Assembly: GCF_027924185.1 (NCBI RefSeq)
Contig: NZ_BRVO01000002.1
Coordinates: forward strand, 186,001-250,000
DNA: 64,000 nucleotides
Direction: 5' to 3'
Source: Neptunitalea lumnitzerae
GTDB taxonomy: Bacteria > Bacteroidota > Bacteroidia > Flavobacteriales > Flavobacteriaceae
The notes under the pieces are model-generated. The model had not been told where the DNA came from, did no database searches, and saw only the letters and a program-made list of their open reading frames with translations. Below, piece after piece: positions 24,479 to 58,096 of the stretch (position 1 is its first letter; each line of letters starts with the position of its first letter). A program made the translations under genes and the position numbers.

Positions 24479-24500
24479 GACTCATCTAGGTTACATCACA

Positions 24501-25808: not shown

Positions 25809-25826
25809 GGTGTTGAATTTAGATGA

Positions 25827-27113: not shown

Positions 27114-27154
27114 GGTAAATGTTTTTACATGGGTTAAACAAAACAAATTGTTTG

Positions 27155-27580: not shown

Positions 27581-27582
27581 TT

Positions 27583-27942: not shown

Positions 27943-27954
27943 AATACGTGTGGT

Positions 27955-36379: not shown

Positions 36380-36694
36380 CTATTCCAAATAAAAAACTTC
36401 TTTTAGTGGTATTGCTACGGGAGAATTATCTTCATTAACTTCCATAATATCGCTCATATGATCCCACCATTTTTTCATTATAGAAGTTTGAGGTAAATCA
36501 TTTGAGGTATGTTCTTCTGTTAATTTTTGGAAGGCAAACAGTACACCTGTTTCTTCATCTAAAAATATATGATAATCTCTAATTCCTGAGACCGTTAATA
36601 AACTTGAAAGTTCCGGCCATATTTCATCATGTCTTTTCTTATATTCAGTCTCACATCCTGACTTTAATTTCATTTTAAAAGCTACTGTTTGCAT
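36380..36694 (-). CDS. rhaM: L-rhamnose mutarotase
   Basis: A 104-residue ferredoxin-like-fold enzyme that interconverts alpha- and beta-L-rhamnose so that the isomerase can use it. Starting at the ATG at 36694 gives the standard length and the usual N-terminus (MQTVAFKMKLKSG). A longer frame upstream would only extend into the neighbouring gene. The His in YKKRHDEIWPEL and the aromatic IMKKWWDHMSDIME segment match RhaM. It is the last gene behind the NCS1 permease and the two large enzymes, 17 bp after the stop of the 707-residue protein. RhaM is cytoplasmic, so this transcript mixes export and catabolic genes. Confidence 0.93.
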   Translation of the reverse strand: MQTVAFKMKLKSGCETEYKKRHDEIWPELSSLLTVSGIRDYHIFLDEETGVLFAFQKLTEEHTSNDLPQTSIMKKWWDHMSDIMEVNEDNSPVAIPLKEVFYLE

Positions 36695-36711
36695 TTCTTG
36701 TGGTGTGTTTG

Positions 36712-38835
36712 TTAAAACATTTTTTCTAGTCCTTCCCATTGTACTTTCCAAGTACCGTCTTTTGGGAATCCTGGGTTTTTCTCGGTACAACCATCCCAAC
36801 CTGCACACATCATAGCTACGGCAGTTAATAAGCCACCATTACCAGGAAGATAAATAGGTAACCTTTCCTCTTGATAATTATGGCCATTAGCAGTATATGT
36901 ATTGGTTTGTACATCCATAAAGAGTGCATCAATGGCTTTATCTGGTTTACCTAGTCTTGCAGCAGACATGGCTGTCATAGGAAAATCCCACCCCCAAGTA
37001 TCTTCCCAAGTCCATGTATCCCAAACCAAATTAAAGGTATTGTTCATAATACTTTTATCCAGTAGAGGTGTTTCGGGTAGCATTCCGTAAGTTCCTAACA
37101 CAGAAGGGTGGTCTGTTTTATACTCTGGATTGGTATAGGAGTCAGTAGCACTTTCAGTGGCTAGGTAAACTCCTTCTTGAATAGGCAATTCTGATAAGTT
37201 AGATACTACATGAACCCATTTCTCTGGAACTTCTTGGTGCAAGCGTTCCTTCCATTTAATGGCTGTTGTTAAAGCCCAATTCCAATACGCTAATTCATAC
37301 GTAGGGTTGAATGTTTCCATAGCTTTAAAGCGTTCCTGTGCAGGTATCACACCAGGGCCTAATACATAGCTATGCGTTTTAGTATCATAATGAGCAAAAG
37401 AGCTCATAAAATCAGCAGTTGCAAATACTTCTTTTTTATAAGTATCTAAAGTTTCAATGGTGCTTTTATTTCGGTACATTAATTCAGCAAAGGTTATAAA
37501 ATGTGGTTGTTGCCATATTAAAAAGGATCCTACTGAAGAAGGACTTTCATTCCCGTAATTATCAGTCATTTTTTGCCATCTCACCCCATCAAAACCTTGT
37601 CTTTTAGCTCTATTTTTAGCTTTGTTTGCCACCTTAGTATACCATGGTAAACTCTTTTCTAGTAATTCGGGTCTTCCCCATAAGGCAAAATGAACTCCAT
37701 GCCACCAATGCATTTCTAAATGAGGCTTTCCATACCAACTATTAAAAGTAAGTCCGGTTTCTTGCGGAGGTACGTTCCCTGTGCATTGTACTTTGGTAAG
37801 GTACTGTGATAATATAATTCTTCTTTCCAATTCATGAGCCCTACTGTCTGTGCTTCCAGTAAAATCTACAGCACCTCCTGATTTCCAAAAATGTTCCCAT
37901 TCTTTGGTACTACTTTCTTTAATAGCTTTTGCGCTTGGTATTTCTGTTTCTCCATTGGTAAATTCACAAACAATAGTGAAAACATTTTTTGTTTTTGGAA
38001 TGATACTATAGTAACTATCGCTTTCCTTTTGTATGGAGGCTTTTTCTTCCCATAAGAATTTAGTTTTATATACAAGCGAATCTAACTTTCTGGAGATAAT
38101 AGCTTGTTTATCATTACTAGAAATTTCACTAACATATTTTCTAGGTCCTGTTTTCTCTGTACCATAATCTGACCAGCCTGCTGTTGGGTATGGAAAACGT
38201 ACGTATAACTTAATCTGTTTTTTCTTTAATAGAGCTGATTCTATCTTGAATCCTAATGCATCTGCGTTTTGATGACAATTGGTAAATACGGTTACCAAAG
38301 TTCCTTCTAAAGTAAATTTACTAGTGATTTCTCCAGTCCATAAATTTAAGGTTTGTTGTATGTTTTTAAGATCGGCGATACTCGCTTTAGACCCATCTTT
38401 TTTGTACAATTCCATTCCCACATTTCCTAATTGAACTCTATGTGGGTTTGCTCTGAAATAGTTAATAGCAGCTTTATGTCTTTCATTCGAGGTAGATTGT
38501 ACAGAATAGGTTATTTTTCTACCATACTGGTCATATTCTTTCAACGTTTCGTCAAATGTATACTTTTCTGTGTTAGGGTAGGAGTTCCATCCCCATTCAG
38601 ATTCGGTTCCTAGAGGCACTCCGGCTTGGTAATAATCGGGGAAGGATTGCATACCAGTGATGTCTACAGTATAAGCAAAAGTTCCGTTCCCTACAGATAA
38701 CGATCCTAAGGTATCAATTTTAGTAAGCTCAACATTGTGCCTGTTCACCAGTGCTTTTCTATCAATTTTTTGCTGTGCTATCACTAGTGAAGTAGCAAGT
38801 ATGCAAAACATTGTTATATAACGATTTTGTTTCAT
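36712..38835 (-). CDS. Exported six-hairpin glycosidase-like protein of unassigned family
   Basis: A 707-residue exported protein (signal peptide to about residue 20, VIAQ). The N-terminal half is beta-rich (LGSLSVGNGTFAYTVDITG). The C-terminal half has features of (alpha/alpha)6-barrel enzymes: TFNSWYGKPHLEMHWWHGVH, VLGPGVIPAQERF and WTWEDTWGWDFPMTAMSAARL resemble active-site strands of GH65/GH95-like proteins, with Glu and Asp residues that could be catalytic. I do not recognise the CAZy family. Its place between a DUF4450 protein and RhaM, under a rhamnose-catabolic operon, suggests it acts on a rhamnose-containing linkage. Function is inferred from context only. Confidence 0.6.
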   Translation of the reverse strand: MKQNRYITMFCILATSLVIAQQKIDRKALVNRHNVELTKIDTLGSLSVGNGTFAYTVDITGMQSFPDYYQAGVPLGTESEWGWNSYPNTEKYTFDETLKEYDQYGRKITYSVQSTSNERHKAAINYFRANPHRVQLGNVGMELYKKDGSKASIADLKNIQQTLNLWTGEITSKFTLEGTLVTVFTNCHQNADALGFKIESALLKKKQIKLYVRFPYPTAGWSDYGTEKTGPRKYVSEISSNDKQAIISRKLDSLVYKTKFLWEEKASIQKESDSYYSIIPKTKNVFTIVCEFTNGETEIPSAKAIKESSTKEWEHFWKSGGAVDFTGSTDSRAHELERRIILSQYLTKVQCTGNVPPQETGLTFNSWYGKPHLEMHWWHGVHFALWGRPELLEKSLPWYTKVANKAKNRAKRQGFDGVRWQKMTDNYGNESPSSVGSFLIWQQPHFITFAELMYRNKSTIETLDTYKKEVFATADFMSSFAHYDTKTHSYVLGPGVIPAQERFKAMETFNPTYELAYWNWALTTAIKWKERLHQEVPEKWVHVVSNLSELPIQEGVYLATESATDSYTNPEYKTDHPSVLGTYGMLPETPLLDKSIMNNTFNLVWDTWTWEDTWGWDFPMTAMSAARLGKPDKAIDALFMDVQTNTYTANGHNYQEERLPIYLPGNGGLLTAVAMMCAGWDGCTEKNPGFPKDGTWKVQWEGLEKMF

Positions 38836-38837
38836 TT

Positions 38838-41800
38838 TTACTCTCTTTTTAATGTTAGTGCCATTAACCCGATAACTACATCATTGGCAATGGTTTTTAG
38901 CTGAATATTTTTAAGTTTTTTACTTTTATCTAGCGGAATATCTAGTAGTGTACCGGCTCCTCCATCAATGCCGTACTTTGTAAAACCGTGTATATCTATA
39001 TAATCTTTGTATACCGTAGTTACTTCACCTGTTTTAAAGTAAACTCTTGGTGGAGTAGGAGCATCAGTAGTAAAAGCATATCCGTCAACATAATAATCTT
39101 GCTCAATAGGCCACCAGTTTTCTGGATTTTTAAGCTCTAAAACTGTTTGGGTTCCATCGGTATAGTTAATTTGTATGGTACCATTACAAATTCTGGTTTG
39201 CATTGGGTTTGTAGTACCTGCCATAAGTAGATAGGCATGAGAAGCCTTCCCCTTTAGAGGAATTGAAATACTTTCTGGATATACATCCCACATGGAGGTA
39301 TAGATAATGTCATTCTCTTTTTCTTTATGAGGAATTGAAAATGGTATTCCTAGTTCTGTTAAAAATATTCCAGATGAATTTACTTTTTCTTTGAGCCCCT
39401 TGGTATCTATTTTAATATCTTCTGCTATTGTAGGATAGCACCAATTGCCAATACCTGTAGTAGGAAGTTGTAGTGTGGGAGAACTAGGTCTAGGTGTTAG
39501 GTATTGGTTTTTAAACGTATAGTTTAGATTACTGTTGTAATAATCTTTTAAATTGATGGGGTCAAGCTTATAATCTTGCTCTTTGAGTTCCCAATTTTGA
39601 AAATGGAAATTATAATTATGTCCGTCGGAAGCTTTCAATTCAAGGTTATTACTTCCTGTAACAAGTAGCTGATGATTGATGTTAATTTCTTTATTCTGAT
39701 GTGCTTCTAATGCGATGGATTTATAAAATGTATGATTTACATAAAGTTTTCCTTTAATTGTTTGGTTCAAATTATTGTAAAGAGTGAGCGCTGATTTTGA
39801 TTTAGAAGGTTGACTTTTAGTAAGCTCAACGGTTGTTAAACTTTCCTGATTCACAGGTGTCCACCAAGTCATTTCGTTTTGATTCATTTTAACGAAATAC
39901 AAAACATTTCCCTTTTTGGTATTTAAGGTTACTGAAGCTTTGTTATTATCTATGTCATAAGATTGTAACCATTTTTGAGGATCATATACTTCTGAAATAT
40001 GTGCATTTTCTGAAGTAATTAAGTGATGATTTACTATTTGTAATGTTTCAAGTTTAGACCCCGACCAATCAATTGTAATGTTGTACTCTTTAGCAGAGGC
40101 AGCACTTATTTCTAGTATCGGATGATGGATACTTTCAATAATTTTATAATCAGCCGTTTTTCCATTAATAGCAATAGCCTTTACGTGGTCATACAAAACT
40201 GGAATCCTAAACTTTAAATTCATGTTTGCTGTTAGTTTAGGTTGAATGGTATAGCTTTCTTTAGTTCCATTTTTTTTCATAGTAAATGAAATATCAGGAA
40301 TGTCTAACGAGGCATGCTTCCATTCTTTTGGGAACCCGGGTTGTATGGTTAAAGTATCAGTAAATGCATCCGGATAAATACCAAACAATCCTTCAACTAA
40401 AGAGCGAGCGGCAACCCCAATTGGATCTGCAAAATCACGGTATAGTTCACCTCGTATTGCATCATAAAATGATAGTTGCTGGAATCCTCCTGGCGATGCA
40501 CTTGTATACATACTTTCAATAAGAGCACTCTTCCATAATTTAAAAGCAGTTTCTTTATCATTACCTTGCCAAAAGGCTAGTGCCATATTAAGATTTTCTG
40601 CTAGTGCTACGTTGTTTACCGACCATGTGTATGGTTGCCAATTTGTGGTGGATAACAAAAAGAGGTTCTCGTTGGTATAACCGTCTATATCAACTGGAAT
40701 TTGAGGTATTTCATTTTTCACATAGTTCAATGCCTCATAGGCTTGAAAGTTAGAAGCTATATTTTTGTCAATGCTATGATAGATTGTCCAAATACCAGGG
40801 GTATCGTGTAATAATTGATTTCCCATAGTATCTTTATACTCCGCAAAAGTCCCTTTTTCAGCAATCCATAATTGAGATTCAATAGCATTTTTTATTTTTT
40901 TAGCCTCTTTTAGATATGGTTCAGGGTTTTCTCCGAGTGTTTTAGCAATAATAGCTGCCATTTGATTAGCTCTGTAGTTGTATGCTGAGGTATAGGTTAC
41001 TTTTCCACCGCTGTATTGTAAAGCATCACTAGCCCAAATTGCCGCATAGGCATCATAGAGTCCGTCATCGTCGGTATCAAAATTTCTTTTTTCCCAAGCA
41101 AGATGTCTTTTGATAGTAGGCCACATTTGTTGCATAAATGCTTTATCTCCTGTCCATTTAAAGTGGGTAAGCATTTGGTCTATAAACACCAAATTCATAT
41201 CGTAATGATGGGCAACGTTATTTCTGTTAGGACGTCTACTAATGTATCCATTAGTAAACATAGCAGTACCTATTTTTTCCTTTTGTCTAGCAAAATATCT
41301 TGATGTATCTGGTGTAACAGGACCTTCCATAGGAGATAGTACCTGTGATTTGCTGTAACTTTCAAAATGAGATTTTGCTCTGTCATGCCATCCTAATAAG
41401 TCTGCACAATAAGCACCTCTCCATGCATTCAAATGCATACGCCAAGCTACAGCACCGTGTAAATATGCAGGAGATTCCCATATAGCATCAGCCGCATAAG
41501 CCAAAGTACCACCAAGTGTATTTAAATATGGATCAGGAGTATCTATGGTTACCCTAGAGGTAAGTTCTTGAATACTCTTTAATGTATGCTCAAAATCTTT
41601 TTGAATTTTTGTTTGTGAATAGTCAGTTTTGTTAGTGTTTCCTATTTTCCAGTAATAGGTATTTTTAACAAAGTTTTCTAAAACACCACATACGGCAGGG
41701 GTGTCCGTTTCTTCACTTCTAATAAATGTATTTGGATTTAAAAGCTTTTTGGCGTCTTTTATATACGTCTTTGTACTATTAGGAAATGAACCGCTTATTA

Positions 41801-42449
41801 TTTTGTTCTGAATTTCTTTTTTGATTTTTAATTGATAATGTAGTTCAAAGTTGGTTTCAGCTATTTCAAAAACATTGTTTTCGCAGTATTCTGGTTGCAG
41901 ATAAAATACAGATTCTGGGTCGGCACCAATATCACCATCTCTGTGGAATTTTTTACCAGTGACACCACCATATGCCCAAATAAGTTTTACATCATTTGGT
42001 ATATTCTCAGTAGTAAGTTTAAGTATCATATCTTCTGTGATATCAGAAGCTACAACTTCTAAATGTAATGTTCCTTTAGCTAACAAGGTATCAGAAATAA
42101 CATATTTCATGATACCTGGAGTATAAACTGTTTGAATGGAATCTGCTTCGGTTATCCATTTACTATGTTGATTCTTGATAATACCTAGCTTAAAATTGCC
42201 TCCCATGCCCGGCATATAAAGTGCAAATTCGGGCAAATCACCTGTTTCTACTCTAAAACCTGTATTGGTACCATATAGTGCTCTGTTAAATTTCCTATGA
42301 CCATTATGAAGTAAAAAATCTTTTCCCCTAGGCGTATAATGTAATTTTTTCTTTTGTTGATGCCATATATTTTCTTCTTGAGCAAGCAGTGTCTGATTGC
42401 CAATAAGTAGCCATACTATAAGGGTTATGAATCTTATAATAAGTTTCAT
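38838..42449 (-). CDS. Exported DUF4450-type protein with six-hairpin glycosidase-like core
   Basis: A 1203-residue exported protein (signal peptide to about residue 23, LLAQ). The N-terminus has a DUF4450-like start (YTPRGKDFLLHNGHRKFNRA, then FRVETGDLPEFALYMPGMGG). The centre (about residues 300-720) resembles an (alpha/alpha)6 glycosidase barrel: AWRMHLNAWRGAYCADLLGW, YDAYAAIWASDALQY and WTIYHSIDKN, followed by NLNMALAFWQGNDKETAFKLW. The C-terminal third is beta-rich and may bind carbohydrate. DUF4450 proteins recur in pectin loci of Bacteroidota; an enzymatic activity is not known to me. It starts 23 bp after the NCS1 gene and ends 2 bp before the next gene. Confidence 0.7.
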   Translation of the reverse strand: MKLIIRFITLIVWLLIGNQTLLAQEENIWHQQKKKLHYTPRGKDFLLHNGHRKFNRALYGTNTGFRVETGDLPEFALYMPGMGGNFKLGIIKNQHSKWITEADSIQTVYTPGIMKYVISDTLLAKGTLHLEVVASDITEDMILKLTTENIPNDVKLIWAYGGVTGKKFHRDGDIGADPESVFYLQPEYCENNVFEIAETNFELHYQLKIKKEIQNKIISGSFPNSTKTYIKDAKKLLNPNTFIRSEETDTPAVCGVLENFVKNTYYWKIGNTNKTDYSQTKIQKDFEHTLKSIQELTSRVTIDTPDPYLNTLGGTLAYAADAIWESPAYLHGAVAWRMHLNAWRGAYCADLLGWHDRAKSHFESYSKSQVLSPMEGPVTPDTSRYFARQKEKIGTAMFTNGYISRRPNRNNVAHHYDMNLVFIDQMLTHFKWTGDKAFMQQMWPTIKRHLAWEKRNFDTDDDGLYDAYAAIWASDALQYSGGKVTYTSAYNYRANQMAAIIAKTLGENPEPYLKEAKKIKNAIESQLWIAEKGTFAEYKDTMGNQLLHDTPGIWTIYHSIDKNIASNFQAYEALNYVKNEIPQIPVDIDGYTNENLFLLSTTNWQPYTWSVNNVALAENLNMALAFWQGNDKETAFKLWKSALIESMYTSASPGGFQQLSFYDAIRGELYRDFADPIGVAARSLVEGLFGIYPDAFTDTLTIQPGFPKEWKHASLDIPDISFTMKKNGTKESYTIQPKLTANMNLKFRIPVLYDHVKAIAINGKTADYKIIESIHHPILEISAASAKEYNITIDWSGSKLETLQIVNHHLITSENAHISEVYDPQKWLQSYDIDNNKASVTLNTKKGNVLYFVKMNQNEMTWWTPVNQESLTTVELTKSQPSKSKSALTLYNNLNQTIKGKLYVNHTFYKSIALEAHQNKEININHQLLVTGSNNLELKASDGHNYNFHFQNWELKEQDYKLDPINLKDYYNSNLNYTFKNQYLTPRPSSPTLQLPTTGIGNWCYPTIAEDIKIDTKGLKEKVNSSGIFLTELGIPFSIPHKEKENDIIYTSMWDVYPESISIPLKGKASHAYLLMAGTTNPMQTRICNGTIQINYTDGTQTVLELKNPENWWPIEQDYYVDGYAFTTDAPTPPRVYFKTGEVTTVYKDYIDIHGFTKYGIDGGAGTLLDIPLDKSKKLKNIQLKTIANDVVIGLMALTLKRE

Positions 42450-42472: not shown

Positions 42473-43900
42473 TTAGGTTGATTTTTTTTGCATCTTTTTA
42501 CTAAATACTAAGTATAGTATTCCGCATAATAACCATGCTGGTAAGGTTACAAACGATAAGAATACATTAAACTGAACTGATATAAAGTAGAAAATTCCAA
42601 AGCTTATAATCCATGCCCAAAAAACAGCATGATTAAATTTAGTTCCAGTTTTTTCAGCATAGAAAGCTTGTATACCATACTTTTTACCGAAGAAATATTC
42701 AAAAACTATAATGGCACCTACAGGAGCCAAGATGAATCCGTAAAGAGAAACAAAACCTAATAGCTTCATAGCAAATGCAGGAAACAAGCCTGCAATGGTG
42801 GCTACCGAGCCTGCAATAATGGTTACCCAAAAAGTAGATACTTTAGGAATAATGGCTTGAAAAGCTAGTCCAGCTCTGTAGATTGTTGGGTTAGCTGTAG
42901 TCCAACCTGCTAGTATTACTGCAATAATTCCAAAGATTCCTATAGCATTATAGGCTAAAGGACCCGGAGCTACGGTAGGTGCTTGCCCACTAGCTAACAT
43001 TTGTTGTGCTTCTGGAGTTTTTAAATATACAGCATATAGCAGGGCAGCTGCTATCCATGCTATGTAATGGCCAATATAAATACCAGCAGCTGTTGTCCAT
43101 CCGGCTCTTGGTTTTTTTGCAAAACGGAATACAGATAGATCTGACATTCCTATGTGCATTGCCGCATTAGCAAACCAAGACCATAGAAAAACGTGCCAAA
43201 ATGTATATTTTATTTGTCCTGGAAATGGTTCTGATCCATTTCCCCATATATTCCAAAAATCAGAAAAAGAAGCTACATTTAATTTAGATAGCGAAACAAC
43301 ACCACATGCAATAAAAGCTAAAACTATAATAGGAGACATATAGTTGGCTGCTTTTGCTACTGTTGCATAGCCTCTTGCAGCTATTACAGAAATAACAATT
43401 CCTAAGAATAGAACTATAACAACCCATGTAGCACTATTAGGATATGAGTCTGTTAGTTTAGGCATTTCCATATTAAAAGGTATTCCTACCGCTGTAGCTG
43501 ACACAGTTATCATAGCCCCAGCCAAGAAGCAGAAGAGCACACCGTTAGCCAAATTGTACAAGGTTACCAACTGTTTACCACATATTTTTTCTAAATGATA
43601 GTATAAAGTATATCTAAACTTAGTACCAATTTCAGCAGTTAAAAATCGCCAACTTAATACAGCCATTAAGTTACCAAGTAATAAACCAATGATGAGGTCA
43701 AAAGCACTGACTCCTGTAGTTAGAAATAGGGGACCAATTACAAATTCGGTTCCTGCGGCATGTTCACCTGCATACATTCCTAGAAAACTTTTCCAGTCTT
43801 TTAGGGAGGTATTAGGGACTCTTTCTCTTTCAAATTCTCCAGACATTTCGTTGGATATTACTTCTTCTTCAAGATGTGCTTGGCTCATATTTGGTAACAT
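42473..43900 (-). CDS. NCS1-family (cytosine/purine/hydantoin-type) permease, candidate L-rhamnose transporter
   Basis: A 475-residue inner-membrane permease with about twelve hydrophobic helices. It has the NCS1 layout: an acidic N-terminus, then GEHAAGTEFVIGPLF in TM1, WFANAAMHIGMSDLSVFRFA in the middle, and TTANPTIYRAGLAFQAIIPK before the last helices, which matches the TTxxxNxYxAGLA pattern of codB-like transporters. Characterised NCS1 members carry nucleobases, hydantoins, thiamine or vitamins. Here it is embedded in rhamnose catabolism, and no RhaT, MFS or ABC sugar transporter is visible in the window, so rhamnose, lactate or a rhamnogalacturonan product is a plausible substrate. This is inference; it may belong to a subfamily of its own. 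Confidence 0.7.
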   Translation of the reverse strand: MLPNMSQAHLEEEVISNEMSGEFERERVPNTSLKDWKSFLGMYAGEHAAGTEFVIGPLFLTTGVSAFDLIIGLLLGNLMAVLSWRFLTAEIGTKFRYTLYYHLEKICGKQLVTLYNLANGVLFCFLAGAMITVSATAVGIPFNMEMPKLTDSYPNSATWVVIVLFLGIVISVIAARGYATVAKAANYMSPIIVLAFIACGVVSLSKLNVASFSDFWNIWGNGSEPFPGQIKYTFWHVFLWSWFANAAMHIGMSDLSVFRFAKKPRAGWTTAAGIYIGHYIAWIAAALLYAVYLKTPEAQQMLASGQAPTVAPGPLAYNAIGIFGIIAVILAGWTTANPTIYRAGLAFQAIIPKVSTFWVTIIAGSVATIAGLFPAFAMKLLGFVSLYGFILAPVGAIIVFEYFFGKKYGIQAFYAEKTGTKFNHAVFWAWIISFGIFYFISVQFNVFLSFVTLPAWLLCGILYLVFSKKMQKKST

Positions 43901-44046: not shown

Positions 44047-46148
44047 AAGGTTATCTTACAAATGCATTAGCCATACCGCCATCTACGTTAATGGTGTTAC
44101 CTGTACTTTTGTTAAGTATGGCCACACAAGCATAGACACCGTTTGCAATGTCATCTGGTAAAATAATTTCGTTTAATAAGTTTCTTTTAGCATAATGAGC
44201 TGGTAAGTCTTTAACATCAATACCGTATGCTTTAGCACGCCCTTGAGCCCAAGCACCTTCCCATATTTTACTACCTACAATAACGCCATCTGGGTTAACG
44301 GTGTTAACTCTAATATGGTCTTTGCCAACTTCAGCAGCTAGTAGTCTGCTCATATGTTGTTGAGCTGCTTTTGCGGTACCGTATCCTACATTGTTAGGTC
44401 CAGCTACGAGTCCGTTTTTACTAGCAATGCTCACAATATCGCCTCCTAGTTTTTGCTGTCTCATAATCTCAATACCTTTTTGAGCTAGCATAAACTGACC
44501 TTTTACGAGTACATTTTGTAAAATATCCCAGTCTTTAGTGGTCGTCTCTTCAATAGGTTTTGAGATAGCTAATCCTGCAGAATGCACAACAATGTCAATA
44601 CCACCGAATGCGAGGCATGCTTTTTTAAATGCTTTTTCAATATCGTTAGCATCTGTAACGTCACACAATACCGCTGTGGCATCATCTTTTTTGTAGTTAT
44701 GTAATGCCTTTTCAATACTTTCTTCACTAATATCAGTTACTACTACATTGGCACCTTCTGCAATTAGTTTATCGGCTATAGCTTTACCAATACCTCCTGT
44801 ACCTCCTGTAACCAAGGCTACTTTTCTAGAAAGCGGTTTTTCAGCCGGCATATGCTTTAATTTAGCCTCTTCTAGTAACCAATATTCAATATCAAAAGCT
44901 TCTTGTCTTGGTAGGGCAGTGTAGGCACTAATGGCTTCAGCCCCTCTCATAACATTAATAGCATTTACATAAAACTCACTAGCCACTCTAGCGGTTTGTT
45001 TGTTTTTAGCAAAGCTGAACATACCAACTCCCGGGTAGATAATAATAACCGGATTCGGGTCTCTCATATCCGGACTATTCGGATGTTTACATTTTTGGTA
45101 ATACTCGGCGTATTCTTGTCTGTACTTTTCAAAGGAAGGCTTTAGAAGCTCCATTACAGTATTAGCATCACTCAGGTCTTGCTCAGGAGATAGGTTAAGA
45201 ATGAGCGGTTGAATTTTAGTACGTAAGAAATGATCAGGGCAAGAGGTCCCCATAGGAGCCAACCTTTCTAAATCATTACTGTTAATGTATTGTAGTACGG
45301 TGTCACTATGAGTAAAATGTCCAATCATGGCATTTTCAGAGGAAGCTAATCCTCTCAGAGTAGGCATTAGATCAGCAGCTTTTTCCAATCTTTTTTCAGC
45401 TGGTAAGGCTTCAATTTTTTGTCCACCAAACACCTGTCCTTTTTGTTTAATTTTTTGTTCAATATATTCAGAAGCCATTTCAATAACCTCTAAACTATTA
45501 ATGTAACATTCGTATGAGGTATCTCCCCAAGTAAATAATCCGTGACTACCTAAAACAATACCTCTAATACCAGGGTTTTCTTCGAGACATTTTTCTAGTT
45601 GTAATCCCAGATCAAAACCCGGACGTTGCCACGGCACCCATCCCATGGTATCGCCCCATATTTCTTTTGTTACTTGCTGGCTATCTTTAGCAGCTGCAAC
45701 AGCAATCAGGGCATCAGGGTGTAGGTGGTCAATATGTTTAAAGGGTAATAGCCCATGTAAAGGGGTATCAATAGAAGGAGCTTTACTATCTAAATCATAA
45801 ATACAATGATTAAAAAGTCCAACCATTCTATCTTCATCATCTAGCCCTTTGTAAACTTTCTTTAAATCTCTAAGTCTTTCAGTGTACAGCCCTGCAATAC
45901 CTTTTCTGGTTAAGGTACCAATATCACCACCTGAACCTTTTACCCACATAACTTCTACTTCTTTGTTAGTAAGAGGATCTTTTTCAATAGTTTTACAAGA
46001 GGTGTTTCCTCCTCCGTAATTTGTAATTCTAAGATCGGCCCCAAGAATATTAGACCTATATAGAAACAGTGCTACTTGATCATTTGCCATAGATGCTGCT
46101 TTTTGCTCATCCCACAAATAATCTACATATTCAAATGTTTTTTCCATT
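44047..46148. repeat. Direct repeat copy A (rhaEW gene)
   Basis: This 2102-bp block matches 55916-58017 without gaps. I count roughly 37 base differences: about 27 in the first 850 bp (SDR half) and about 10 in the remaining 1250 bp (aldolase half). Homology starts 4 bp past the stop codon and ends 1 bp before the start codon. Confidence 0.95.
44051..46147 (-). CDS. rhaEW: Bifunctional L-rhamnulose-1-phosphate aldolase / L-lactaldehyde dehydrogenase, copy 1
   Basis: A 698-residue fusion. Residues about 1-410 are a class II aldolase/adducin domain: YGGGNTSCK, VKGSGGDIGTL, the metal-binding DTPLHGLLPFKHIDHLHPDA and GSHGLFTWG. From about residue 430 an SDR dehydrogenase follows, with VTGGTGGIGKA for NAD binding and catalytic YGTAK. 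The aldolase splits L-rhamnulose-1-phosphate to DHAP and L-lactaldehyde; the SDR should oxidize lactaldehyde to L-lactate. An almost identical copy lies at 55920-58016; the proteins differ at six residues. This copy has its own operator and -7 element and precedes the NCS1-DUF4450-rhaM group. Confidence 0.94.
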   Translation of the reverse strand: MEKTFEYVDYLWDEQKAASMANDQVALFLYRSNILGADLRITNYGGGNTSCKTIEKDPLTNKEVEVMWVKGSGGDIGTLTRKGIAGLYTERLRDLKKVYKGLDDEDRMVGLFNHCIYDLDSKAPSIDTPLHGLLPFKHIDHLHPDALIAVAAAKDSQQVTKEIWGDTMGWVPWQRPGFDLGLQLEKCLEENPGIRGIVLGSHGLFTWGDTSYECYINSLEVIEMASEYIEQKIKQKGQVFGGQKIEALPAEKRLEKAADLMPTLRGLASSENAMIGHFTHSDTVLQYINSNDLERLAPMGTSCPDHFLRTKIQPLILNLSPEQDLSDANTVMELLKPSFEKYRQEYAEYYQKCKHPNSPDMRDPNPVIIIYPGVGMFSFAKNKQTARVASEFYVNAINVMRGAEAISAYTALPRQEAFDIEYWLLEEAKLKHMPAEKPLSRKVALVTGGTGGIGKAIADKLIAEGANVVVTDISEESIEKALHNYKKDDATAVLCDVTDANDIEKAFKKACLAFGGIDIVVHSAGLAISKPIEETTTKDWDILQNVLVKGQFMLAQKGIEIMRQQKLGGDIVSIASKNGLVAGPNNVGYGTAKAAQQHMSRLLAAEVGKDHIRVNTVNPDGVIVGSKIWEGAWAQGRAKAYGIDVKDLPAHYAKRNLLNEIILPDDIANGVYACVAILNKSTGNTINVDGGMANAFVR

Positions 46149-46211: not shown

Positions 46212-46228
46212 TATCCTGTGCTGTACTG
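46212..46228 (-). promoter_or_regulatory. Rhamnose-regulon operator candidate, site 1
   Basis: The minus strand reads CAGTACAGCACAGGATA: two direct half-sites, CAGTACA and CAGGATA, ten bases apart. The 20-bp spacer to the -7 element contains GTAAGCTTT, as at site 2. Confidence 0.72.
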
Positions 46229-46391: not shown

Positions 46392-46433
46392 ATTTTACGA
46401 AAACGTTGTTGTTCGTTTTTAAATTATTAGAAT

Positions 46434-49163
46434 ATGATATTAAAAAGTGGAGTACCTTTTAAATTAACTTGTTTGCTTATTGTGTGTTTTGCAACTTTTT
46501 GTAATGCTCAGAAGCAAGATACTCCTGATGATAATATTCATAAACCTTGGACACGCTGGTGGTGGATGGGCAGTGCTGTAGATGAACCTGGAATAAAATC
46601 TAATTTAGTAACTTTTAGTAAAGCTGGTTTGGGAGGCGTTGAGATTACACCTATTTATGGAGTAAAAGGGGAAGAAGCTAATTTTATTGATTTTTTATCT
46701 CCTAAGTATTTAAAGATACTGTCTTACACTATACAAGTAGCCGATAGTTTAGGTTTAGGGGTAGATATGGTTTTAGGAACCGGTTGGCCTTATGGTGGTC
46801 CACAAGTAGAAAAACAATATGCGGCTACTAATGTTGTTTTTAGAAGTTATAATTTACAAAAAGGAGAAAGGTTTAAAGAGACTATTGTACACGAAAGTAA
46901 ATATGATAAGTATAAACCAGAACTTACAAATGTATTGGTATACGGTAGTGAGGGGTACTATCAAGATGTAACGGATAAATTGGAGGATGGAAACTTTTTA
47001 AACTGGAAAGCTAAAAAAGAAGATGTAACTATAATAGCTGTTTTTACTGGTAAAACAGGGCAAAAAGTAAAAAGAGCAGCACCAGGCGGAGAGGGTTATA
47101 CCTTAGACCATTATAGTACAGAAGCATTTAACCATTATGTACAAACCTATGATACTGCTTTCAATAAATTGAATGGTTCTTTAAGAGCTATTTTTAATGA
47201 TAGTTATGAAGTATACGGAACCACCTTTACGCCAAAATTTTTTAGTGAATTTGAAAAGAAAAGAGGATATGATATTAAACCCTTTTTGCCACAACTATTA
47301 GATACTGTTTCTAATGATATAGGAGATAGAATTAAAGCAGATTATAGAGCTACAATATCTGATCTTTTACTGGACTTTGATACTACTTGGACAGCATGGG
47401 CAAACGGACATCATTTAAAATCTAGATTGCAAGCACATGGATCACCAGGAAATTTAATTGATTTATATGCTGCTGCAGATATACCTGAATGTGAAACTTT
47501 TGGGTCTATGCCTTTTGATATCGAAGGTTTTAGAAGATTACCAGAAAATATAAGATCTGGTGATGCTGATCCTGTAATGCTAAAGTTTTCTTCTTCTGCG
47601 GCTCATGTTTCAGGTAAACCGTTAGTGTCTTCTGAAACATTTACTTGGTTGAGAGATCATTTTAAAACGGCATTATCTCAATGTAAACCAGAAGTAGAAT
47701 CGTTGTTTTTAATGGGGGTTAATCATGTTTTTCTGCATGGTAGTACCTATTCGCCACCACGTGCCAAATGGCCAGGATGGAAGTTTTATGCTTCAGTAAA
47801 TTTTAATGAAAACAATACCATTTGGAAAGATGCACCTGCATTATTTGATTATATAAAAAATTGTCAGGAGTTTTTACAAGAGGGGAAACCTGATAATCAA
47901 ACGCTTTTATATTGGCCTGTTTACGATGTATGGCAAAAAACAATGAAAGCCGATTTAATGGTTCAGTTTCCTATTCATGGATTAGAGAAATGGCTTCATG
48001 GTACATCCTTTTATGAAACGGCAAATCAGTTAATATTTAATGGATATCAAACTGATTTTATATCAGATCGTTTCCTAGAAAAAGTATCTGTAAAAAATGG
48101 TATGATCCAAACTGAAGGAGGATTATATAAATGTATTATTGTTCCTGATTGTACTTATATGCCTTTAGAAACAATGAAAAAACTATTAAGTTTAAGAGAA
48201 GCAGGAGCAAAGATTATATTTAAAGGATTACCAGAAAGTGTTCCAGGTTTTTTAAACTTTGAAACTAAAAATAATGAGCTAAAAAAATTAATTAGTCACA
48301 GTAACATTGAAGTAAGTAGCCATTTAGAAAAAGATTTAGCTCTTGTTAATGTTTTTAATGAATCGCTTGTTAATACGGGTTTAAAATATATTAGCCGTTT
48401 AGATGAAAAGGGAGATAAAATATACTTTTTAGTAAATCATACAGATCATACTATTGACGAATTTATAACACTAAATACAGATTCAAATATACTTCAGTTT
48501 ACAAATCCTCAGAATTCTAAAACAGGCTTAGCAACGGTTAAAGTGACATCTGAGAATACCAAAAGAGTTAGAGTTTCCTTATTATCTGGGGAGTCTATTT
48601 TTATCTCTAGAGGAACTACTGACCAGCCGAAATGGAATTATAGGGACAAAGTTAATGATGAGGAATATAAACTTACTAATGAGTGGAACTTAACTTTTTT
48701 AGATGGAGGTCCTGAACTGCCAGATGTTCAATCGATTTCTAAACTTGCATCTTGGACCACGCTCGGCGAAAAAATGGAAGCATTTTCTGGAACTGTAGCC
48801 TACAAAACTACTTTTGATAGCCCAACTGATAATCAACATTGGCTTTTGGATCTTGGTGATGTGAGAGAAAGTGCAAACGTTTGGATTAACGGCCAATATG
48901 TTGGATGTGCTTGGGCTAATCCTTACGTACTAGAAATAGATAACCTGAAACCTACCGATAATACACTACGAATTGAAGTAACCAATTTACCTGCCAATAG
49001 AATACGAGATTTAGAATTACGTGGTGAAGAATGGCAAATATTTTATGAAATAAATATGGTTAACAAAGATTATAAAAAGTTTGATGCTACTGTATGGGAA
49101 CCAGTTCCATCGGGTCTTATAGGTACTGTAAAACTGATACCTATTACAGTGGCGGTTAAATAA
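46434..49163 (+). CDS. Alpha-L-rhamnosidase, GH106 family
   Basis: A 909-residue exported enzyme. A signal peptide (cleavage about residue 25, CNAQ) is followed by the family hallmark PWTRWWWMGSAVDEPGI, then GLGGVEITPIYGVKGEE and GVDMVLGTGWPYGGPQV. The barrel continues with FNDSYEVYGTTF and SETFTWLRDHF, where conserved acidic residues lie. A C-terminal jelly-roll (WLLDLGDVRESANVWINGQ, then LRIEVTNLPANRIRDLE) completes the typical layout. It would release terminal L-rhamnose from rhamnogalacturonan fragments. It is somewhat shorter than the longest GH106 proteins but appears complete. It is co-transcribed with the GH105 gene 30 bp downstream. Confidence 0.9.
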   Translation: MILKSGVPFKLTCLLIVCFATFCNAQKQDTPDDNIHKPWTRWWWMGSAVDEPGIKSNLVTFSKAGLGGVEITPIYGVKGEEANFIDFLSPKYLKILSYTIQVADSLGLGVDMVLGTGWPYGGPQVEKQYAATNVVFRSYNLQKGERFKETIVHESKYDKYKPELTNVLVYGSEGYYQDVTDKLEDGNFLNWKAKKEDVTIIAVFTGKTGQKVKRAAPGGEGYTLDHYSTEAFNHYVQTYDTAFNKLNGSLRAIFNDSYEVYGTTFTPKFFSEFEKKRGYDIKPFLPQLLDTVSNDIGDRIKADYRATISDLLLDFDTTWTAWANGHHLKSRLQAHGSPGNLIDLYAAADIPECETFGSMPFDIEGFRRLPENIRSGDADPVMLKFSSSAAHVSGKPLVSSETFTWLRDHFKTALSQCKPEVESLFLMGVNHVFLHGSTYSPPRAKWPGWKFYASVNFNENNTIWKDAPALFDYIKNCQEFLQEGKPDNQTLLYWPVYDVWQKTMKADLMVQFPIHGLEKWLHGTSFYETANQLIFNGYQTDFISDRFLEKVSVKNGMIQTEGGLYKCIIVPDCTYMPLETMKKLLSLREAGAKIIFKGLPESVPGFLNFETKNNELKKLISHSNIEVSSHLEKDLALVNVFNESLVNTGLKYISRLDEKGDKIYFLVNHTDHTIDEFITLNTDSNILQFTNPQNSKTGLATVKVTSENTKRVRVSLLSGESIFISRGTTDQPKWNYRDKVNDEEYKLTNEWNLTFLDGGPELPDVQSISKLASWTTLGEKMEAFSGTVAYKTTFDSPTDNQHWLLDLGDVRESANVWINGQYVGCAWANPYVLEIDNLKPTDNTLRIEVTNLPANRIRDLELRGEEWQIFYEINMVNKDYKKFDATVWEPVPSGLIGTVKLIPITVAVK

Positions 49164-50423: not shown

Positions 50424-51005
50424 TTAAATAAGAATTATGGTGTTACTTACAGCGCCTTGTGCTCCTATAACAAGTGATTGTTCTATATCGGCAGTTTTAG
50501 AAGGCCCTGCAATAAAAACGCCATATTCTCCTATATTTTCTTTCACTTTTGAATAAGCCTGGTGCATTGTAGGTACTATATTTTTATGATCTACAATAAA
50601 CAAGGTATTTTCACTACCAAACGCTGAGATACGTTGTGGTAATTGTTCATTTGTAATCCACATACAACCGTTTTCTGCTACAGCAATTTTTGGTAATGCT
50701 ACAAAAACATCTACATGGGTAGTCTTAAAATCTATCTCAGGAATGTCGTTACCATTAAGTGTATTATATACTTTACTATGCTCACCAAAGTTTTCAGCAA
50801 TAAATTTTGCTAAAAACAACTCTAGGGAAGTTTCTGTATTTACTAAGTTTACAACAGTACTGGCATTAGTGGTAGACACCTCTATAAAGGTATCTATTAA
50901 GTTTTCGGTTGTTACGTTGTGGGTGAAAATAGATAAGTCCGGTAATTCTACTAATTCCGGTTTATTATTTCTTATTTTCTCTAGTATAGAAGCTCTACTA
51001 CTCAT
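50424..51005 (-). CDS. lutC: Lactate utilization protein C (LUD domain)
   Basis: A 193-residue LUD-domain protein, subunit of the LutABC L-lactate oxidation complex. I start it at the ATG at 51005 (MSSRASILEKIRNNKPE), the conserved N-terminus; a longer frame upstream would overlap lutB more. The chosen start overlaps the lutB stop by 8 bp, typical of coupled genes. Visible landmarks are CMWITNEQLPQRISAFGSENT and VFIAGPSKTADIEQSLVIGAQG. LutABC oxidizes L-lactate to pyruvate, here the lactate made from rhamnose by RhaEW. It is the last gene of the rhaI-rhaB-lutABC group. Confidence 0.9.
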   Translation of the reverse strand: MSSRASILEKIRNNKPELVELPDLSIFTHNVTTENLIDTFIEVSTTNASTVVNLVNTETSLELFLAKFIAENFGEHSKVYNTLNGNDIPEIDFKTTHVDVFVALPKIAVAENGCMWITNEQLPQRISAFGSENTLFIVDHKNIVPTMHQAYSKVKENIGEYGVFIAGPSKTADIEQSLVIGAQGAVSNTIILI

Positions 51006-52365
51006 TGTTTTTATTTTTATACCATTCTTTAAAAGATTGCTTTGGAGGTTGTGGAAGTTCTCGATGTTTACCCCAGTCATTAAACTTGTTATACATCATA
51101 AATCTTGGTAAAGCCTTCATGGAAGCTCTAGCAAACTTTCCTAAAAAGTCATAGGTAGAAGGACTTTTAAACACTTTCGTAGCTATTTTTAAAGAGGTTA
51201 CTTTAGATTTTGGTAACTCATTGTTTTTATAGATTTCTTGGCGCCATTTATATAGCTGTTCATGGATGTTTATTTTAACAGGACAAACATCACTACAAGA
51301 TCCGCAGAGGGTAGAGGCAAAAGGCAAATCACTGTAAGCTTTTAAATCTCTATTTGGTTGTAAAATGGCACCAATAGGTCCTGGAATGGTTGCATGGTAG
51401 CTATGACCACCACTTCTTCGATAAATAGGGCATGTATTCATACAAGCACCACATCGTATGCATTTTAAGCTATTTCTGAAATCTTCTTTAGCTAATTGTT
51501 CACTTCTACCATTATCTACAATAACAATATGCATTTCTTTAGAGCTTTCGGGCTTATGGTAATGCGATGTATAAATAGTAGACGGTTGCCCTGTAGCACT
51601 TCTAGCCAATAGTCTGGTAAAAACACCTAAGTGTTCTAGTTTAGGTAAAATCTTTTCCATACCCATACAATGTATGTGTACTGGTGCTGCGTGGCATCCC
51701 ATATCAGCGTTCCCTTCATTGGTACAAATTACTACACCCCCTGTTTCTGCTATGGCAAAATTAACTCCTGTGATGGCTATATCTGCTTCAAAGAATTTAT
51801 TTTGTAAATGGGTTCTAGCAGCTTTGGTTAAATAGGTAGGGTCTGCATTACCTTTTTCTGTGCCTAATTGTGCATGGAATAACTCTCCAACTTCTTCCTT
51901 TTTAATATGAATTGCGGGCAATACGATATGACTGGGAGGTTCATTACGCATTTGTATAATACGTTCGCCCAAATCGGTGTCAATTATTTCAATACCGTTA
52001 TCTTCTAAAAAATGATTTAAACCACATTCTTCTGTTAACATGGATTTACTTTTCACTATTTTTCTGGCATTATGTTTATCAATAATATCACCTATGATGG
52101 CGTTGTGTTCATTTCCATTGGCAGCCCAATGTATATGTACACCATTCGCTTTAGCTGCGGCTTCAAATTGTATGAGATACGTATCTAAATTACTAAGAAC
52201 ATTATCTTTTATCTGTGATGCTGTATTGCGCAAAGCTTCCCATTCTGGTACGCCAGAAGCACTTATATCACGTTTGTTTCGTACATGCCATAAAGCACCA
52301 TCATGCCAGTTGGTTCGTTCTTCATTTGCTATAAAATCCTTTGCTTTTTGGGCATGTATACTCAT
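50998..52365 (-). CDS. lutB: Lactate utilization iron-sulfur protein B
   Basis: A 455-residue protein with an N-terminal LUD domain (about residues 60-290; VNFAIAETGGVVICTNEGNA) and a C-terminal 4Fe-4S ferredoxin part with two cluster motifs, CIRCGACMNTCPIYRRSGGH and LCGSCSDVCPVKINIHEQ. The domain order and length match LutB/YkgF. It acts with LutA and LutC in cytoplasmic L-lactate oxidation. Its ATG overlaps the lutA stop by 4 bp (ATGA) and its 3' end overlaps lutC. Confidence 0.94.
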   Translation of the reverse strand: MSIHAQKAKDFIANEERTNWHDGALWHVRNKRDISASGVPEWEALRNTASQIKDNVLSNLDTYLIQFEAAAKANGVHIHWAANGNEHNAIIGDIIDKHNARKIVKSKSMLTEECGLNHFLEDNGIEIIDTDLGERIIQMRNEPPSHIVLPAIHIKKEEVGELFHAQLGTEKGNADPTYLTKAARTHLQNKFFEADIAITGVNFAIAETGGVVICTNEGNADMGCHAAPVHIHCMGMEKILPKLEHLGVFTRLLARSATGQPSTIYTSHYHKPESSKEMHIVIVDNGRSEQLAKEDFRNSLKCIRCGACMNTCPIYRRSGGHSYHATIPGPIGAILQPNRDLKAYSDLPFASTLCGSCSDVCPVKINIHEQLYKWRQEIYKNNELPKSKVTSLKIATKVFKSPSTYDFLGKFARASMKALPRFMMYNKFNDWGKHRELPQPPKQSFKEWYKNKNNE

Positions 52366-53108
52366 AGTGTATCTCCGTTTAAAATATTAGCAATGTGCAT
52401 AATTTTAGGTCCATTTTTCTGACGTTTAATAATACCTTGTAAATGCATTAAGCAAGACATATCACCAGATGTAATTACTTCTACTTGGTTATTTATATGG
52501 TCTTGCACTCTGTCTTTACCCATTTTAACTGAAATAGCTTCTTCTGCAACGGCAAAAGTTCCTCCAAAACCACAACATTCATCTGTTCTGGTTAGGTCTG
52601 CTATTTCAATATCATTAACCATATGTAAAATAGTAGTCCATTTAGGAGCAACCTCTTTTTGTAGTTCTGAAGGTTTATCTAGTTGCATACCTCTTAAACC
52701 ATGACAACCTTTGTGTAAACCCACACGATGTGGAAAAGACACATCTAACTGGGTTATCTTTAGTACGTCATATAAGAATTCTACTAAATCATAACAATTT
52801 GCTCGCAGGTGTTTAATTTCCTCTGTTTGCTCTGCAACATCATAATGTTTTCTTATATGATATACACAACTAGGTGAGGGGCCTACTATGTAATCGCAAT
52901 TTTTAAAAAGTTCAGCCATTTGCTGATATATTTTTTTTCCTTCTTGTTCCATACCTGTGTTTGCCATAGGCTGTCCGCAACAGGTTTGTTGTTCAGGAAA
53001 AATTACATTACAATTATGTTTTTCCAACAAGCGTAATGTAGCAATACCTACTTCAGGAAAAAATTGATCTACATAACAAGGTATAAATAAGCCTACATTA
53101 TACTTCAT
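52362..53108 (-). CDS. lutA: Lactate utilization iron-sulfur protein A (CCG domain)
   Basis: A 248-residue protein with two cysteine-rich CCG domains: TCCGQPMANTG near residue 42 and DECCGFGGTFAVAEE near residue 180, plus Cys-containing GPSPSCVYHIRKHY. These are the LutA/YkgE signatures; they bind an iron-sulfur cofactor in heterodisulfide-reductase-like proteins. It forms the L-lactate oxidizing complex with LutB and LutC and lies 4 bp after the kinase gene, so sugar and lactate steps are on one transcript. Confidence 0.93.
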   Translation of the reverse strand: MKYNVGLFIPCYVDQFFPEVGIATLRLLEKHNCNVIFPEQQTCCGQPMANTGMEQEGKKIYQQMAELFKNCDYIVGPSPSCVYHIRKHYDVAEQTEEIKHLRANCYDLVEFLYDVLKITQLDVSFPHRVGLHKGCHGLRGMQLDKPSELQKEVAPKWTTILHMVNDIEIADLTRTDECCGFGGTFAVAEEAISVKMGKDRVQDHINNQVEVITSGDMSCLMHLQGIIKRQKNGPKIMHIANILNGDTL

Positions 53109-53112
53109 ACAA

Positions 53113-54510
53113 TTAAATTTTGTGTGGAGTTTTTAGTATTAGGGGTACTAATTGTCTCATTTGATAATTTTGCTTTAAGAACGAACCATCTATTTCTTTC
53201 TTTGAGATAACCATAGCAGCGCCCAAAGCAGATCCCAAAGGAGATTTTGTACTTAATACGTTAAATTCACTAAAATGATGAGCCATCAGTTTCATAAAAA
53301 CATCATTATCTGTAAAGCCACCATCTATATAAATGGTATTTATAGTAGAATTACCAATAGCATTTCTTATGGTATCAATTTGCAGTTCCATAAGTTCTAT
53401 CATTAGTTGATGATAGGCTTCTTCAAAGGTTTTAAATTCTTCTAATTTTGTTTTTTCTAGTTTCTTTCTCTTGAGTTTTATGCCTTCAAATCGGAAGTAT
53501 AAAGATGGATTTTCAATCAATTTTAAATAAAGTTCTTGATCAAATTTTACACTTCTGTGATACCCATAATCCTTATTATAATAAGTACCTAATTTTTCAA
53601 CCTGACAACGATATTCATTACCCATGAAAAAGCGAGAAGCTTTAACACGTTTGCCATCAATCCTCATATAATTTAGACAATTGTTTAAAATATCTGCTTC
53701 CGTTAAGTTTTCTTCATTAAACGGATTTAGTGATATGCTCCAAGTACCTGTAGACAATAATAAAAATGGATTTTTTTTACTTAAAATATAAGGTAGAAGG
53801 GCAGAAGAGCTATCATGAATTCCAACTCCTATTTTAATGTTTTTTCCAAAATATGAAGTATTTATAGAAGCTCCTGTAGGTACAATGGGAGCTAGAATTT
53901 TATCGATTTCTTCTTTATAAACCCATTCATGATAATCTCCTTTCTGATAGTTCCATAAGTTAGTATGGCAACCAATAGATGTGTATTCACTTACTGGAAT
54001 ACTAGTGAACATAAAAGATAAGTATTGTGGTAAGTGAAGACTATACTTAATCTTACTATAGATTTCAGGATATTTTTTCTTAATCCAATAAAGCTGCATA
54101 CCAGAATTAAGCATTCCCGATTGTGGAGATGCCGTTTCTGTAGCAATTTTTAGTTCTCCTCCGTAAGTTTCGTAAAATTCTTTTTGAATATCATCATCTA
54201 TCTGTTTTGTATAATTATATAAAGGCGTTAAGGCTTTACCTTGATGGTCAATATGTACAAAACTAGCACCGTAAGTAGAAAAATTAATAGCTTTTACCTC
54301 GTATTTATCACTTTCCAGTATTTGATGAAATATATTCTTCATCCATTCCTCAAGCTGATGTAAATCTTCTGTTTCAAAACCATCTTCATCAACTGTTAGT
54401 GGCAAATTGGTATAATCTCTAAAAACCTCCTGATAATTTTTATCAAACAGGAAGAATTTTTTGTTGGTTTTACCAATATCAAAAATAGCAGTAACCTTCT
54501 TTTTCCCCAT
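53113..54510 (-). CDS. rhaB: L-rhamnulokinase-like FGGY carbohydrate kinase
   Basis: A 465-residue FGGY-family kinase. I use the ATG at 54510; the frame could begin three codons earlier at a TTG. The N-terminal phosphate-binding motif IFDIGKTNKKFFLF and the C-terminal YIDGGFTDNDVFMKLMA are present, as is STGTWSISLNPF in the middle. It should phosphorylate L-rhamnulose to L-rhamnulose-1-phosphate. FGGY kinases vary in sugar specificity, so the assignment rests on the isomerase gene 12 bp upstream and rhaEW beside it. Length is normal for this non-enterobacterial rhamnulokinase group. Confidence 0.87.
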   Translation of the reverse strand: MGKKKVTAIFDIGKTNKKFFLFDKNYQEVFRDYTNLPLTVDEDGFETEDLHQLEEWMKNIFHQILESDKYEVKAINFSTYGASFVHIDHQGKALTPLYNYTKQIDDDIQKEFYETYGGELKIATETASPQSGMLNSGMQLYWIKKKYPEIYSKIKYSLHLPQYLSFMFTSIPVSEYTSIGCHTNLWNYQKGDYHEWVYKEEIDKILAPIVPTGASINTSYFGKNIKIGVGIHDSSSALLPYILSKKNPFLLLSTGTWSISLNPFNEENLTEADILNNCLNYMRIDGKRVKASRFFMGNEYRCQVEKLGTYYNKDYGYHRSVKFDQELYLKLIENPSLYFRFEGIKLKRKKLEKTKLEEFKTFEEAYHQLMIELMELQIDTIRNAIGNSTINTIYIDGGFTDNDVFMKLMAHHFSEFNVLSTKSPLGSALGAAMVISKKEIDGSFLKQNYQMRQLVPLILKTPHKI

Positions 54511-54522
54511 AACACTCAAATT

Positions 54523-55797: not shown

Positions 55798-55872
55798 AGT
55801 TTTAGTTAGTTATTTTTGTTAGAGGTAATTTCGTGAAAAAATACCATAAAACATCACTTTTAGAAATAAAAA

Positions 55873-55905
55873 GCAGCAAGGAAGTTACATCATCAACCTT
55901 GCTGC
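55873..55905 (-). terminator. Intrinsic terminator after rhaEW copy 2
   Basis: GCAGCAAGG (55873-55881) pairs with CCTTGCTGC (55897-55905); on the minus strand the stem is followed by TTTTTATTT. It lies 15 bp past the rhaEW stop and before rhaI, so it probably sets a ratio between the two parts of the operon. Confidence 0.87.
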
Positions 55906-55915
55906 ATACCAATCC

Positions 55916-58079: not shown

Positions 58080-58096
58080 TATCCTGTAGTGTACTG
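58080..58096 (-). promoter_or_regulatory. Rhamnose-regulon operator candidate, site 2
   Basis: The minus strand reads CAGTACACTACAGGATA, half-sites CAGTACA and CAGGATA ten bases apart. It lies between rhaEW copy 2 and the divergent GntR gene, the common place for a regulator's own site. Confidence 0.72.

Follow-up and report, generated by a model that had tools for sequence, protein, structure and literature searches.

A predicted L-rhamnose permease of NCS1-like fold that may stand in for RhaT in Bacteroidota

Much of the rhamnose of algae and plants is recycled by Bacteroidota. RhaT (PF06379, DMT superfamily) is an L-rhamnose:H+ symporter. For L-rhamnose uptake, the accessible text of a survey of rhamnose regulons from 2013 names three carriers, RhaT, the MFS protein RhaY and an ABC system, and the term NCS1 does not occur in that text (PMC3870299). 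According to the accessible part of a 2026 paper, the characterised bacterial NCS1 proteins carry nitrogenous heterocycles, to which the paper adds metformin (PMC13390362). The metformin transporter MetT, as described there, resembles the permease studied here, by description only, in being an NCS1-type carrier of something other than a nitrogenous ring; unlike the permease it is filed in NCS1 by its authors, and its substrate is unrelated to sugars. The closest match in terms of fold is CodB. The accessible sections of PMC9379551 describe an aromatic pair of CodB, Trp108/Phe204, as conserved throughout NCS1, a Na+ held by Thr278/Thr279 among others, and substrates of CodB and Mhp1 that make no specific contact with TM1.

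Here, we compare with these systems a permease of the flavobacterium Neptunitalea lumnitzerae, found in a window (the whole stretch of DNA analysed) of 64,000 nucleotides. We predict that it is the inner-membrane L-rhamnose importer of a pectin-degradation locus, where it stands in for RhaT, and put the probability of this reading at roughly 0.88. It draws support from synteny, from an almost perfect exchange with RhaT and from a common operator-like motif.

The permease and its locus

The permease ORF is found on the minus strand exactly at the coordinates given by the first-pass annotation. It codes for 475 aa. The predicted structure is almost all helix and confident (mean pLDDT 86.7, pTM 0.87). 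Homologues with 46-79% identity are present in 32 of 395 genomes of the phylum beyond the window's own copy, so this is not a chance ORF. The features of the locus are:

36380..36808, minus strand: rhaM, L-rhamnose mutarotase (Pfam/NCBIfam)
36712..38835, minus strand: 707-aa ORF, without Pfam or NCBIfam match
38838..42449, minus strand: DUF4450 protein (Pfam)
42473..43900, minus strand: NCS1-like permease, predicted L-rhamnose symporter (P0001; context, co-occurrence, fold, profile)
44051..46147, minus strand: rhaEW1, rhamnulose-1-P aldolase / lactaldehyde dehydrogenase, directly upstream of the permease
46213..46228, plus strand: operator-like site ATCCTGTGCTGTACTG in the gap that separates GH106 from rhaEW1, which leads to the permease
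46434..49163, plus strand: GH106 alpha-L-rhamnosidase (Pfam/NCBIfam)
50424..53108, minus strand: lutC, lutB, lutA, L-lactate oxidation
53113..54519, minus strand: rhaB-type FGGY kinase (best named match rhamnulokinase, under its cut-off)
54523..55797, minus strand: rhaI-type L-rhamnose isomerase (best named match TIGR02629, under its cut-off)
55920..58016, minus strand: rhaEW2
58081..58096, plus strand: operator-like site ATCCTGTAGTGTACTG in the gap that separates rhaEW2 from the GntR-type regulator
58212..59258, plus strand: GntR-type regulator with a sugar-binding-like domain, candidate RhaR

As first annotated, the permease lies between rhaEW and the DUF4450/rhaM genes: the minus-strand order is rhaEW1, permease, DUF4450, 707-aa ORF and rhaM, followed by a GDSL esterase, a GH2 gene and an RGL11 lyase. 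The gap from rhaEW1 to the permease is 150 bases, and that from the permease stop to DUF4450 is 23 bases. Judging from its Pfam match, rhaM probably starts some 41 codons past the listed GTG. The GH106 and GH88 genes run in the opposite direction; then come lutABC, rhaB, rhaI, rhaEW2, the divergent GntR-type regulator, GH28, SusD and SusC, with the remaining genes of the rhamnose pathway (rhaEW2, rhaI, rhaB, lutABC) at 50424-58016. The stretch between the permease and rhaI/rhaB is thus occupied by lutABC and GH genes, which counts against the reading as a rhamnose importer. The two rhaEW copies are 98.2% identical in DNA over 2106 bases and therefore represent a duplication, which extends no further than the gene and a few flanking bases.

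The Pfam scan identifies the locus as rhamnogalacturonan-type (RGL11, GH28, GH88, GH106). Such a locus would also suit a permease for rhamnose-containing di- or oligosaccharides instead of the free sugar, and according to the accessible text of PMC3870299 some bacteria are proposed to use oligosaccharide importers for rhamnose too. However, the permease replaces RhaT, a carrier of free rhamnose, even where the fetched stretch shows few such hydrolases, and its sister clade (see below) points toward monomeric polyols. On these grounds, we rejected the oligosaccharide carrier, to which we leave only a very small chance.

No other inner-membrane carrier was detected by Pfam in the 20 main ORFs at 30298-63949, nor in the 10 ORFs of the 22 kb beyond the window end, and RhaT (PF06379) has zero matches across the whole genome; the window scans began at 14,861 and passed over ORF 29561-29968. 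The permease is thereby, as had been claimed, the only inner-membrane carrier found in the locus, and the proposed look just outside the window for a conventional rhamnose carrier brought none to light in those 22 kb. Farther out, the closest carriers seen are an SSS protein whose gene adjoins a GH26 gene 30 kb past the end of the window and, some 20 kb ahead of its start, an MFS protein that resembles a drug exporter by eye. As candidate rhamnose importers, the MFS and SSS carriers of this genome were set aside, none being found in the locus; an MFS or SSS importer of rhamnose may exist elsewhere in the genome.

Three further observations concern the surroundings. Of the 80 named loci (see below), 8 have a relative of the 707-aa ORF (36712-38835) close to the permease, and the ORF may represent a new family of enzymes in rhamnogalacturonan loci. 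Immediately past the window end there are GH115 and UxuA genes (L031:6269-10356), which suggests that glucuronate side chains are handled by the locus as well. At 20508-29517, methylmalonyl-CoA mutase subunits adjoin subunits of a Na+-pump type decarboxylase (OAD beta, OAD gamma, biotin carrier, carboxyltransferase), which could create a Na+ gradient useful to Na+ symporters.

Fold, family and conserved residues

The permease has no match to PF02133 (Transp_cyt_pur, NCS1) at E up to 10, and the genome has none at E <= 0.001; matches to this model are present in 28 of 198 phylum genomes. Among the Pfam and NCBIfam models none matches the protein meaningfully, and sequence searches of the PDB at E up to 10, one of them made with a 36-row profile, returned nothing. 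The predicted model (not a solved structure) fits CodB best (PDB 7QOA; Z 39.5, rmsd 2.8 over 395 residues), followed by Mhp1 (Z 32.1) and the next family (Z 24.8). Foldseek also ranks CodB first. In profile comparisons, the permease scores 98.5% (E 3.5e-15) against A3, a CodB-like NCS1 set of three sequences, and weakly, 27.8%, against the Mhp1-like set A2; the controls gave 0.7% for SSS, 5.8% for MFS and 99.7% for A3 against A2.

We built a tree, a check proposed in the first-pass annotation, in which the permease clade stands apart from the CodB-like and Mhp1-like NCS1 proteins. The rhamnose-linked clade (33 sequences) has a support of 0.997, a mannitol-linked clade (9 sequences) 1.0, and their union 0.982. 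Each of these groups is separate from the CodB-like proteins, whose own set the tree does not resolve, and from the Mhp1-like ones.

The residues of CodB were mapped onto the permease via L192. Thr278/Thr279 (Na2 site, TM8) align ungapped with T334/T335, which are invariant in 36 of 36 rows. Trp108 aligns with L126 (33 Leu and 3 Ile rows), Gln105 falls on a Phe, and Phe204 aligns with N245, an Asn in all 36 rows. None of the 36 rows has a Trp at columns 118-138, and seven have one at 110, 114 or 117. A register shift in TM6 is possible, since a tryptophan three positions ahead of N245, W242, is invariant; the mapping of Phe204 is accordingly less certain. With respect to the features of NCS1, the clamp of two aromatic residues is not present at the aligned positions, and the Na2 threonine pair is. 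The invariant polar residues of the permease clade are E46, H47, T51, E52, N119, N245, H249 and R342.

In summary of the comparison with CodB, the two proteins are alike in predicted fold over 395 residues and in the Thr-Thr of the Na2 site, part of a local W-T-T...Y..GL match in TM8. They are unlike in that the permease finds no sequence match in the PDB, has Leu/Phe for Trp108/Gln105 and Asn for Phe204, and occurs in rhamnose operons. The lack of a PF02133 match, the CodB-like fold and profile, the missing clamp and the kept threonines together lead us to file the protein as NCS1-like, not as a member of NCS1. Its predicted fold and its profile place it on a divergent branch that is sister to the LeuT-fold carriers of the NCS1/CodB-like kind. 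The original assignment to the NCS1 family thus holds for the neighbourhood of CodB, given by fold and profile, and fails at PF02133 and the other Pfam and NCBIfam models; the suggestion of a new transporter class was overstated for a branch of this kind.

If the protein were simply an NCS1 carrier of the ordinary type (nucleobase, hydantoin or vitamin), located here by chance, it would have CodB and Mhp1 as its best fold matches, and this is what the permease shows. Such a carrier would not be expected to lack a PF02133 match or to be linked to rhamnose genes across the phylum, and Leu or Ile at the Trp108 position, with no Trp at columns 118-138, disagrees with a clamp described as NCS1-wide in the accessible part of PMC9379551. 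A nucleobase carrier was rejected for these three reasons, and we regard an ordinary NCS1 function as extremely improbable.

Linkage to rhamnose genes and exchange with RhaT

Conservation of the permease with rhaI and rhaB was the other check proposed, and it came out in favour of the link. We used 32 survey loci and 80 named loci from GTDB genomes, the latter being the best 80 of more than 500 candidates and not a random sample; the two sets overlap in at least two loci (L034/L131, L038/L108). At least one of rhaI, rhaB and rhaEW is found in the fetched flank of the permease in 28 of the 32 survey loci, one of which (L040) has only a 30%-identity isomerase. The four without are L035, L042, L057 and L064, and in L057 a GH78-type rhamnosidase gene adjoins the permease. 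Among the named loci (best 80 of more than 500), a rha gene is near the permease in 70, with rhaI in 68 and rhaB in 68; ten have no nearby rhaI, rhaB or rhaEW, including L150 and L151 with 10 kb on either side.

In Mesonia oceanica (L085), the permease is 87% identical to that of the window and the order is rhaEW, rhaI, rhaB, permease, GH28, DUF4450 and 707-aa ORF; an lldD-like ORF separates rhaB from the permease. Compared with this order, the window seems to have had its permease and rhaB moved away from each other, with a rhaEW copy standing before the permease. In another member of the clade (G809), the permease is 48% identical to the window's, stands beside a GntR-type regulator, GH106 and rhaM, and has an operator-like site just upstream. 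A permease 73% identical to the window's lies on a contig labelled as a Thermoanaerobaculia MAG (L152), either by transfer or by a binning error.

A protein search of 395 phylum genomes found the permease in 35. Two of these (G107, G130) have only the distant sister form, about 36% identical, and were removed before co-occurrence was counted, which leaves the rhamnose-type clade in 33 genomes, the window's own included. All 33 contain rhaI, which is present in 67 of the 395 genomes. RhaT was found in 48 genomes, in 43 of them strongly; the five weak matches (E 2e-24 to 4e-22) were set aside in the main count. The 67 rhaI genomes then comprise 31 with the permease only, 32 with strong RhaT only, two with both (G162, G304) and two with neither (G004, G096). 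Counting the weak matches, the numbers are 28, 32, five and two. The exclusion has a Fisher p of about 2e-14, which is overstated because related genomes are not independent. In nine of the 43 genomes with strong RhaT, the search, which was for this type of rhaI, gave no match.

The exchange is also seen in gene order. RhaT lies in the rhaI stretch of 29 of the 32 RhaT-only genomes, commonly in the order RhaT, rhaEW, rhaI, rhaB, lut or lldD, and the permease in none of the 32 stretches. The permease is like RhaT in its linkage to the same rhamnose catabolic enzymes and in the operator-like motif, which precedes RhaT in three loci; it is unlike RhaT in family, having no PF06379 match, and the two occur together, RhaT being strong, in 2 of 67 rhaI genomes (five with weak matches). 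One of the two, G162, carries its permease (L042) beside GH92 and DUF1549/DUF1553/DUF1501 genes, away from the rha genes, and the substrate of this copy may differ.

The first-pass annotation had left the choice between rhamnose and lactate, and a permease for L-lactate (or L-lactaldehyde), the product of RhaEW, moving it outward or inward, has to be weighed. Genes of lactate oxidation, lldD or lut, occur in 18 of 32 survey loci and in 56 of the named loci (best 80 of more than 500); in 47 of the latter, lldD stands between rhaB and the permease, on one strand in the order rhaB-lldD-permease, so a lactate-related role is not absurd. The lldD product is an FMN-dependent dehydrogenase (PF01070 in both loci tested), which we read as L-lactate dehydrogenase. 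However, these genes are about as frequent (23 of 32) in RhaT-only clusters, which lack the permease, and the sister clade goes with a polyol dehydrogenase. The permease therefore replaces RhaT rather than a lactate carrier: the enzymes stay the same and the carrier is swapped, which separates rhamnose from lactate as the substrate. The lactate carrier was rejected on the frequency in RhaT-only clusters, and we consider it very unlikely. Of the two substrates named at first, rhamnose is thus retained on synteny, RhaT replacement and the shared motif.

The operator-like motif, ATCCTGTNNTGTACTG, was read by eye from words common to 44 intergenic stretches before rhaEW (42 from relatives and two from the window). 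In the window it has two exact matches, 46213 and 58081, which are both rha promoters, where 0.03 matches would be expected with no more than one mismatch allowed; allowing three leaves a weak excess (12 against 5.4 expected). Loci with at least one site number 10 of 32 in the survey set, 47 of 80 in the named set, 11 of 40 among the RhaT-type loci and 10 of 20 among further loci, the enrichment in the survey and named loci being partly built in because those loci gave the pattern. A control of 380 kb from G809 contains three sites. The motif was derived independently of the RhaT loci and of the G076-family loci, apart from those of the latter that belong to the survey. In the RhaT loci, 7 of 12 sites are upstream of rha-type genes (0.8 expected by area), and in the G076-family loci 5 of 11 (0.5 expected by area). 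With up to two mismatches, a site precedes the permease by no more than 400 bases in L041, L043, L126, L136, L155, L269, L273, L277, L279 and L280, that of L280 lying inside the neighbouring regulator gene and that of L277 near the 400-base limit. The same holds upstream of RhaT in L229, L236 and L255. The GntR-type protein is the candidate regulator that would bind this motif.

A second motif, ACGNNNNCGT, is over-represented with 8 sites in the window where 1.4 are expected, 5 of the 8 being inside listed ORFs. It is found in the gap from rhaEW1 to the permease, at 43938, and in front of rhaEW1, at 46397. Three intergenic copies of ACGTTTTCGT, of which ACGNNNNCGT is a looser form, or of its complement are at 29892, 43938 and 46397, perhaps the site of a second regulator.

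Sister clade, proposed transport and wider reading

The sister permeases have about 570 aa and are about 36% identical to the window permease. In all 20 loci examined, the gene lies directly beside one for a mannitol-type dehydrogenase. The 20 loci are 14 of 14 with a gene similar to the L066 Mannitol_dh, L068, and five of five from another family (L276, L281-L284); sister-clade fragments in G497:C95, G395 and G519 were left out of this count. PF01232/PF08125 was confirmed in all five dehydrogenases tested (L066, L067, L068, L207, L276). The loci are:

L066:9307-12509, L068, L195-L208, L276, L281-L284: sister clade with mannitol/arabinitol-type dehydrogenase

From this neighbourhood, the sister clade is predicted to be a polyol importer of NCS1-like fold.

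For the window permease, we infer the substrate, the direction, the coupling ion, the roles of residues and the periplasmic place of the hydrolases. SusC/D and the rhamnosidases would deliver L-rhamnose into the periplasm. The permease would then move it inward by alternating access, probably together with Na+ at the Na2 site of the LeuT-type fold, i.e. it is most likely a Na+/L-rhamnose symporter. RhaM, RhaI, RhaB, RhaEW and LutABC would convert the rhamnose to dihydroxyacetone phosphate and pyruvate. The permease would thus do the job of RhaT though unrelated to it. Its branch, next to the CodB-type NCS1 carriers, would have lost the aromatic nucleobase clamp; it has its own invariant polar residues, among which E46, H47, T51 and E52 at the TM1 break are candidate sugar contacts, unlike the situation in CodB and Mhp1.

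More broadly, it is likely that in Bacteroidota and neighbours the NCS1/CodB-like fold gave rise to a sugar/polyol branch. One clade, for L-rhamnose, would have displaced RhaT in about half of the sampled rhamnose users (33 of 67), and another would carry a hexitol or pentitol such as mannitol; the clamp would have been given up, the site rebuilt on polar residues of the TM1 break, and the Na2 site kept.

Echvi_1617 of Echinicola vietnamensis, which we take to be a relative of the permease, is presumably listed as an L-rhamnose transporter in the Fitness Browser/GapMind. Our literature search returned neither this tag nor an earlier account of the permease among the matches listed, and the accessible text of papers on GapMind and annotation tools (PMC9007349, PMC11378808) makes no mention of Echvi_1617. 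If Echvi_1617 belongs to the permease clade, the rhamnose function already has genetic support from mutant fitness, and the new parts would be the NCS1-like fold, the replacement of RhaT and the polyol sister clade.

A further type of rhamnose carrier would close a gap in the known carriers for much of the phylum, and the assignment would name proteins left nameless by Pfam and NCBIfam. It would also show, in a clean example, how a single fold changes its substrates from nucleobases to sugars and polyols, and the pair of sister clades could be used to map specificity.
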